Part shown: one piece after another, positions 20,430 to 21,925 of the stretch
How positions within the stretch are numbered: the stretch's first letter is position 1
Layout: every line of letters starts with the position of its first letter
DNA from: an uncultured Pseudomonadota bacterium
GTDB lineage: Bacteria; Pseudomonadota; Zetaproteobacteria; Mariprofundales; Mariprofundaceae
Direction: 5' to 3'
DNA: 36,905 bases
NCBI GenBank assembly: GCA_913055645.1
Contig: CAJXLC010000022.1
Span: forward strand, 1-36,905
Notes under the pieces: generated by a model
Database searches by the model: none
What the model saw: the letters and a program-made list of their open reading frames with translations, nothing else
What the model was told of the DNA's origin: nothing
Translations under genes and position numbers: made by a program

Positions 20430-20867
20430 TTAGATACCCAACTGCTCAAGTATATCGGGATCAATGGCATTATCCTCTATTTCAAGCTGCCATAATTGCG
20501 CATCCCATATTTCAACAGTATTGGATGAGCCAGCAAACTGTATAGATTTAGATAAACTAGCATGTTCACGTAAAGATTGCGGCAACAAAACGCGACCTTG
20601 CCTATCGGCGAAACATTCAATAGCCGAGCTAACAACACGGCGTTGAATGCGGCGTAAGGTAGGGTTGGAGGATGGGATAAGGTTCAACTTGTCTAAAAAA
20701 GCCTGCCATTCCATCATGGGATAAACCCTTAAGCATGCATCTCTAATATCTCTGGTGATCACCATGCGCTCATCATCGTAATCTTTGCGCAATGCATCAC
20801 GAAAGGCAGCAGGGATATTAACCCGACCTTTGCTATCCATTGTATTTGCATAATTACCGATAAACAT
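20430..20867 (-). CDS. mraZ: Transcriptional regulator MraZ
   Basis: First gene of the dcw cluster and a DNA-binding repressor of it in E. coli. It has two tandem AbrB/SpoVT-like repeats with the characteristic motifs MDSKGRVNIPAAFR (about residue 10) and DRQGRVLLPQSLREHA (about 85). MraZ forms a ring oligomer that binds repeated TGGG boxes; two such boxes spaced ten bases apart lie 33-47 bases upstream of the start. The start at 20867 (MFIGNYAN) gives 145 residues (E. coli 152); a longer frame from 20906 runs through the leader and reads into the operator. The ribosome site is weak (GGAG about 15 bases away). Confidence 0.96.
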   Translation of the reverse strand: MFIGNYANTMDSKGRVNIPAAFRDALRKDYDDERMVITRDIRDACLRVYPMMEWQAFLDKLNLIPSSNPTLRRIQRRVVSSAIECFADRQGRVLLPQSLREHASLSKSIQFAGSSNTVEIWDAQLWQLEIEDNAIDPDILEQLGI

Positions 20868-20899: not shown

Positions 20900-20914
20900 C
20901 CCACACTTACCCAC
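20900..20914 (-). promoter_or_regulatory. mraZ: MraZ operator: two GTGGG boxes, 10-base period
   Basis: On the - strand the sequence reads GTGGGTAAGTGTGGG, so two GTGGG boxes start exactly ten bases apart and each continues TAA. This matches the known MraZ-binding pattern of TGGG repeats separated by 5 bases. The boxes lie just after the predicted -10, near the likely transcription start and 33-47 bases before the mraZ ATG, a good place for autorepression. Only two clear boxes are seen; a third in-register box is not present. Confidence 0.75.
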
Positions 20915-20923
20915 TTATGCGCC

Positions 20924-20952
20924 AATATCGACTAATTTTTTATATATGTCAA
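20924..20952 (-). promoter_or_regulatory. Sigma70-type promoter of the dcw cluster
   Basis: On the - strand a perfect TTGACA (-35, 20947-20952) is separated by 17 bases from GATATT (-10, 20924-20929, 4 of 6 consensus). It points at mraZ, with an initiation point expected about 50 bases before the mraZ ATG and immediately next to the MraZ boxes. Surrounding DNA is very AT-rich. It is likely the main cluster promoter, although internal promoters cannot be excluded. Confidence 0.7.
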
Positions 20953-21083
20953 TACTATTTGTCCATTATTTATTATATATTTCAAGCATTTACGATAAAA
21001 CAGTTTAGTTATTAGGGTTTTGCAGCCTTTGTGAATGAAGTTCTTTTTTTAAGTCTTATAACCTATTGTTATATATAGATAAT

Positions 21084-21127
21084 TATAATATTTAGAGCGT
21101 GGTTTATGCAGTGTGGGTTAAAGTGGG
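21084..21127 (+). promoter_or_regulatory. Second MraZ-type box pair in opposite orientation, with a TATAAT hexamer upstream
   Basis: On the + strand GTGGG occurs at 21113-21117 and again at 21123-21127, again with a ten-base period and both followed by TTA. A perfect TATAAT lies at 21084-21089, but the matching -35 is poor. The pair points away from mraZ and toward the 3' end of kdsB, about 200 bases from the mraZ operator. No + strand gene follows, so it may help MraZ looping or control an antisense or small RNA. The rest of the 20868-21160 gap is AT-rich without other clear elements. Confidence 0.45.
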
Positions 21128-21160: not shown

Positions 21161-21925
21161 TTACGATGCTTGTAGCTGTTTCTTCGCACGTTCGAGGTCT
21201 TCAGGTGTATCCACGCCCAAGCAGTGAAAGTCGCCAGTGGTTACGGCAATAGTGTATCCATGATGCAATACGCGTAGCTGTTCCAATTGTTCGGAATTAC
21301 CATTTGGGCATTCGGATAATTGACTGTAATTTGATAGAAATTCTTTGGTATAAGCATACAAACCAACATGTTGTAGTGCCGTAGCGACATGTTCTTTACG
21401 AGGGAAAGGTATGGCAGCACGGCTGAAATACATGGCATGAGATTTGGCATTGCAGACCACTTTGACGACATTGGGATCGTACAGGTCTTCATCACGCAGC
21501 AATGGATGAGCAAGCGTTGCCATTTCAAGCGTGGAATCAAGTGTAAATGGTTTGATAACGGCTTGAATAGCAAGCGGGTCAATTAAGGGTTCATCACCTT
21601 GCACATTAACCACAATATCACAATCCATGTCTTGCACAGCTTCAGCCAAGCGCTCGCTGCCACTTTGATGGTCAATATGACTCATAAAAACATCACAATC
21701 TGCATCACGGACAATGGAAGCAATGCGCTCATCATCGGTTGCTACAAAGACATGACCAATATTTGCCTGTTTGGCACGCTCAATAACATGAACAATCATG
21801 GGTTTACCAGCCAACTCAGCCAAAGGCTTGCCAGGAAAGCGGGTGGATGCGAAACGCGCAGGAATACCAACAGCAACAGTTTGTTTTGTGACAGTTTTCT
21901 TCGATGTTCTCATGGTATGCGTCAT
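21161..21925 (-). CDS. kdsB: 3-deoxy-manno-octulosonate cytidylyltransferase KdsB
   Basis: Activates Kdo with CTP to CMP-Kdo for the lipopolysaccharide inner core. The N-terminal nucleotide-binding signature GIPARFASTRFPGKPLAEL is at about residues 20-38. IVVNVQGDEPLIDP holds the Mg-binding Asp; ATDDERI and the C-terminal HCLGVDTPEDLERAK are typical. The 254 residues fit the family; a start 4 codons later (MRTSKK) is equally possible. The ATG at 21925 shares one base with the rfaE1 stop (TAATG), so it belongs to an LPS-precursor operon with rfaE1. Confidence 0.96.
   Translation of the reverse strand: MTHTMRTSKKTVTKQTVAVGIPARFASTRFPGKPLAELAGKPMIVHVIERAKQANIGHVFVATDDERIASIVRDADCDVFMSHIDHQSGSERLAEAVQDMDCDIVVNVQGDEPLIDPLAIQAVIKPFTLDSTLEMATLAHPLLRDEDLYDPNVVKVVCNAKSHAMYFSRAAIPFPRKEHVATALQHVGLYAYTKEFLSNYSQLSECPNGNSEQLEQLRVLHHGYTIAVTTGDFHCLGVDTPEDLERAKKQLQAS

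Follow-up and report, generated by a model that had tools for sequence, protein, structure and literature searches.

A distal inverted MraZ-box pair as a candidate auxiliary operator of the mraZ/dcw promoter in Mariprofundaceae

MraZ, among the most conserved regulators of bacteria, is very widespread, and its gene comes first in the operon of division and cell-wall (dcw) genes. In E. coli, it reportedly binds boxes of the dcw cluster just 3' of the mraZ -10 element, and in Mollicutes the MraZ boxes are said to be arranged as direct repeats. Control through two separated sites is familiar from LacI, GalR, AraC, and lambda CI, in which an oligomeric repressor and an auxiliary operator 90-300 bp away form a DNA loop with a preference for helical phase. 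MraZ itself forms multi-subunit rings, and an octameric toroid has been described (PMC7761207). In B. cenocepacia, the direct GTG repeats bound by MraZ overlap the dcw start, and no gel-shift binding was observed with the distal half of the intergenic region in a strain that may lack the distal pair described below (PMC7761207). In R. sphaeroides, the mraZ leader gives rise to the sRNA UpsM, a same-strand 5' leader RNA (PMC5089854).

Here, we examine the region upstream of mraZ in an uncultured member of the Mariprofundaceae (Zetaproteobacteria), within a window of 36,905 nucleotides that represents one contig of a 1.88-Mb genome. As in E. coli, B. cenocepacia, and Mollicutes, the boxes have a GTG core and a 10-bp period and lie 3' of the mraZ -10 element, with mraZ first in the dcw cluster. 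Known MraZ arrays form one direct-repeat block (four repeats in B. cenocepacia, PMC7761207), whereas here two promoter boxes are accompanied by a conserved facing pair, 98-287 bp off across relatives. An MraZ operator with such a conserved distal partner would differ from the single-block arrays described, and the papers that our literature search covered, with Eraso 2014 and the reports on the 2026 cryo-EM structures not among them, describe no distal inverted MraZ site. The arrangement resembles the LacI, GalR, AraC, and lambda CI loops in carrying a second operator copy at a similar range and in having an oligomeric repressor, with looping here a proposal. Unlike those repressors, MraZ is an AbrB-like ring, its boxes are non-palindromic, and the distal copy is inverted. 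The likeness to UpsM is that of a regulatory element upstream of mraZ, but the feature here is a pair of DNA boxes and not an RNA.

Two facing box pairs in the kdsB-mraZ gap

Gene order on the minus strand runs from kdsB (21161-21925) across a 293-bp gap to mraZ (20430-20867, ATG at 20867; Pfam PF02381, E 1.5e-30), rsmH, and the remaining dcw cluster. The MraZ protein is ordinary, with the DxKGR and DxQGR motifs conserved in the family. Its AlphaFold model (pLDDT 92) matches solved MraZ structures with Z scores of about 19-20, including that of M. genitalium MraZ bound to a promoter with four boxes (9sz7). The M. genitalium MraZ-DNA cryo-EM entries 9r4j and 9sz7 share this fold (Z about 19) and present multivalent MraZ on repeated boxes; by their titles, one 4-box promoter stretch is bound, with no indication of two-site bridging.

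The mraZ/dcw promoter (20924-20952, minus strand) consists of TTGACA, a 17-nt spacer, and GATATT. The end of its -10 element lies 9 nt before the main operator GTGGGTAAGTGTGGG (20900-20914, minus strand), the direct pair GTGGG-TAAGT-GTGGG. Facing this site, at 213 bp from start to start, is the distal pair GTGGGTTAAAGTGGG (21113-21127, plus strand), which reads GTGGG-TTAAA-GTGGG and is recognized by motif and by conservation. It has the GTG(G)-core direct repeats at 10-bp spacing (GTGGG-N5-GTGGG) that characterize MraZ boxes, and it shares with the main site an extended motif of GTGGG(G/T), an (A/G)A-rich spacer, and GTGGGT. The initial annotation had proposed a second, oppositely oriented MraZ-type pair about 200 bases from the dcw operator, a proposal that these sequence features, together with the conservation, mraZ association, and inversion documented below, appear to bear out.

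The 198-bp spacer between the two pairs (20915-21112) is a candidate loop. Within it, two blocks are conserved in congeners, at 21065-21077 and about 21030-21045, comprising TATATATAACAAT (minus strand) and GAACTT.ATTCACAA, the latter in 4 of 6 congeners; no promoter or known site accounts for either. A search of plasmid DNA matched kdsB fragments of enterobacteria only.

Conservation and association with mraZ

The inverted pair is present in all six same-genus genomes that carry mraZ, between positions -253 and -319 relative to the mraZ ATG. Its CCCAC boxes are invariant across these congeners in an alignment with a mean column identity of 60%. Absence from near relatives had been named at the outset as grounds for discarding the pair, and the congeners instead retain it. 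Beyond the genus, a distal pair within loop range of the main pair is conserved in about a dozen genera.

We searched 398 Pseudomonadota genomes for the facing pattern CCCACN5CCCAC-gap-GTGGGN5GTGGG with gaps of 75-135, 136-196, or 205-265 bp, using the same pattern reversed as a control. Facing pairs were found in 39 genomes (20, 11, and 8 for the three gap classes, respectively), bearing in mind that many of the genomes are MAGs, that they are related, and that motifs do not equal binding. By coordinates, the matches adjoin mraZ in 39/39 genomes, while the reversed pattern matched in a single genome; among the 398 genomes, the facing arrangement thus occurs at mraZ loci only. In the target genome itself, the motif has five exact matches, namely both pairs of the mraZ gap and one each on C5, C35, and C45, with those on C5 and C35 falling within long open reading frames.

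Four of the 39 genomes lie outside Mariprofundales (G105, G114, G124, and G165). Of 119 genomes in the G124 family, 13 match a facing pattern one base shorter: 11 belong to the G124 genus and carry its mraZ promoter sequence, one similar-looking match comes from another genus, and one appears to be chance-like. Separately, most searched members of a Burkholderiaceae-like genus, g54 (L177 and L217-L225), have a facing pair about 242 bp 5' of the main operator.

We did not detect mraZ in the congeners G005, G006, G008, and G010, nor in G011 from another genus, and a Pfam model search of G005, G006, and G011 likewise returned no mraZ. All five retain rsmH, and neither operator pair is present in their rsmH and kdsB regions. 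In these mraZ-less genomes kdsB lies on a separate contig, so the pair is not carried along with kdsB; loss in place is not implied. The initial annotation had raised a possible link of MraZ to LPS precursor synthesis through kdsB. We rejected this link: the pair is absent beside kdsB in the congeners where that gene lies elsewhere and persists where the neighbor is another gene or points away. Apparently lost here within a genus, mraZ otherwise ranks among the most conserved genes of bacteria.

The distal pair is absent in genus g8 (about 17 genomes) and in G016. Across the g8 loci (L046, L047, L049-L057, L059, and L062, among others), it is missing genus-wide with the main operator retained, and these loci also keep upstream degenerate boxes (GTGGT, TTGGC). 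We considered whether the inverted pair trades off with the length of the direct array, with fewer direct boxes where the inverted pair is present, and found no clean pattern: a similar degenerate 4-box array occurs in both g8 and g9, which differ in the inverted pair.

Orientation, spacing, and a proposed looping model

Sigma-70 scoring separates the two sites. The main operator is accompanied by a TTGACA promoter in every Mariprofundales genome, with the -10 end 7-11 nt upstream and mean z per genus of 1.2 to 3.5. For a promoter facing the inverted pair, mean z stays close to zero in all genera apart from g13, a genus represented by a single genome. Scanning the whole spacer, or the mraZ direction around the pair, scored no better and did not exceed shuffled background. 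The main operator, and not the distal pair, overlaps a promoter start 3' of a -10 element; lacking its own promoter, the distal pair is therefore termed auxiliary and not a second primary operator.

Orientation was counted 5' of the mraZ promoter, no more than 450 bp from mraZ and with at most one mismatch. The 68 Mariprofundales loci yielded 48 inverted pairs and 1 direct pair (chance expectation, 0.37), and the 38 loci from other Pseudomonadota yielded 8 and 0 (chance expectation, 0.25). Counts so far above chance argue that the inversion of the distal pair is under selection. A flexible loop needs no inversion, so a bridged complex would have a dyad, or the site would also serve leftward transcription that escaped detection.

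The distance between the pairs varies from 98 to 287 bp across relatives. The 28 genus-unique exact distances give the greatest vector length at 10.3 bp (R 0.53; p 0.001 by jitter), and 24 clustered distances give R 0.36-0.46 (p 0.006-0.05) when the period is set to 10.2-10.5 bp. When distances of nearly equal size are pooled genus by genus, 19-24 values remain, with p 0.006-0.06; Mariprofundales alone gives p 0.03-0.06. The p value climbs to as much as 0.10 once one-mismatch sites are included, and individual subsets give 0.17 and 0.34. In several congeners the distances are offset by exactly 10 bp (203, 213, and 223; 100 and 110). Helical phasing of the spacing is thus suggestive; the signal is weak and changes with the way in which related genomes are pooled.

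We estimate a probability of roughly 60% that the distal pair is an auxiliary MraZ operator of the mraZ/dcw promoter, with a multivalent ring probably linking it to the main site in a small repression loop. The pair exists, is conserved, lies in the opposite orientation, is associated with mraZ, and has no recognizable second promoter; from these observations we infer MraZ binding, bridging, and a regulatory effect. MraZ would occupy the main pair just 3' of the -10 element, and the distal pair upstream would offer it a second set of boxes. One ring with many DNA-binding subunits, or two associated rings, could bridge the two promoter boxes and the two distal boxes, and a many-subunit ring holding both sites would give the repression loop, making autorepression stronger or more switch-like. 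The suggestion in the initial annotation of a looping partner fits well with a pair that is conserved, tracks mraZ, and is inverted, with a suggestive helical period. Against the auxiliary-operator reading stand the strict inversion, which a flexible loop would not demand, the genomes of g8 and G016 that lack the site, and the weak phasing. In addition, the distal half of the B. cenocepacia region was unbound in gel shifts (PMC7761207), and the g9 pair keeps its distance from a ycgN-like start, as described below.

More tentatively, and at somewhat under even odds, the site may be one half of a split operator, in which one ring, or a dyad-related ring pair, holds two promoter boxes together with two facing boxes that lie 10-27 helical turns upstream, in a phased repression loop. 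Such an operator would be ancestral in Zetaproteobacteria and recur in other Pseudomonadota.

Competing explanations and the ycgN-like gene

The strict inversion (48:1 and 8:0) could also reflect a divergent promoter, with MraZ controlling a gene or RNA on the far side of the pair and the orientation mirrored for that reason. In 10 of 11 genomes read from genus g9, the inverted pair lies 41-45 nt before the ATG of a divergent ycgN-like gene, a distance similar to the 54-61 nt that separate the main operator from mraZ there. The pair holds this place before the ycgN-like gene even in G088, 797 bp from mraZ, a constancy that counts against a purely looping role. The g9 loci with the pair near the ycgN-like start are L063, L064, L122, L126, L131, L133, L134, L135, L137, and L143. 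A second role of the distal pair for the ycgN-like gene is likely in g9, and this gene is a candidate member of the MraZ regulon in that genus.

As a general account, a divergent promoter is unlikely. The sigma-70 score finds none above background in nearly all genera, although weak or non-sigma-70 types could escape it, and in this genus there is neither an outward promoter above background next to the pair nor a divergent gene or RNA. The upstream neighbors, named by sequence inspection except where Pfam is cited, vary in both identity and orientation (kdsB, multicopper-oxidase-like, HD-domain, ycgN, ObgE, and others), and the pair persists. Co-directional kdsB lies upstream in this genus, g13, and G024; G052, G044, G074, G083, and G026 instead have other genes of the same direction ending there; and G124 has an RsmI-like gene. 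There is no divergent gene in any of these, nor in g1. A divergent gene beyond the distal pair is present only in some other genera, where it encodes a sugar kinase, ObgE, a YceD-like protein, or others, and in g9 often the ycgN-like protein.

A roadblock or insulator role, in which MraZ on the distal pair would keep transcription of the upstream gene from reading through into dcw, is improbable. The pair does follow the kdsB stop codon by about 33-40 nt in this genus, with no recognizable terminator, but it also occurs where the upstream gene points away, and its distances to upstream stop codons vary. We consider it very improbable that the pair serves for storage or titration, buffering free MraZ with no loop: the shared core motif and the lack of an adjoining promoter would suit a decoy, which needs neither a fixed orientation nor closeness to the main operator.

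That the pair in this genus controls a small or antisense RNA extending into the kdsB 3' end, as the initial annotation envisaged, is highly improbable. The TATAAT that it placed upstream of the pair is present (21084-21089, plus strand) and is followed by a Shine-Dalgarno-like AGGAAG and an ATG at 21166 that opens a 27-codon frame. This TATAAT is not conserved in the alignment with congeners, a facing promoter does not exceed shuffled background, and the hexamer is probably no promoter element. The frame at 21166 is lost in most congeners, an Rfam search gave no RNA match above threshold, no terminator was found, and the pair is kept where the neighbor is not kdsB. Chance presence of a short motif, consistent by itself with an unremarkable 2 matches against 1.24 expected in the window at one mismatch or fewer, is refuted with near certainty because the distal pair is conserved in congeners, with a facing arrangement specific to mraZ loci and a bias toward inversion.

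Returning to the auxiliary operator, a conserved distal facing site would give the multivalent MraZ ring something to bridge, and its placement suggests that MraZ may control the division genes through two distant sites at once. MraZ control would move from a single-site model to a testable two-site model, for which genus g8 offers a natural comparison, and the ycgN-like gene becomes a candidate new MraZ target in one genus.
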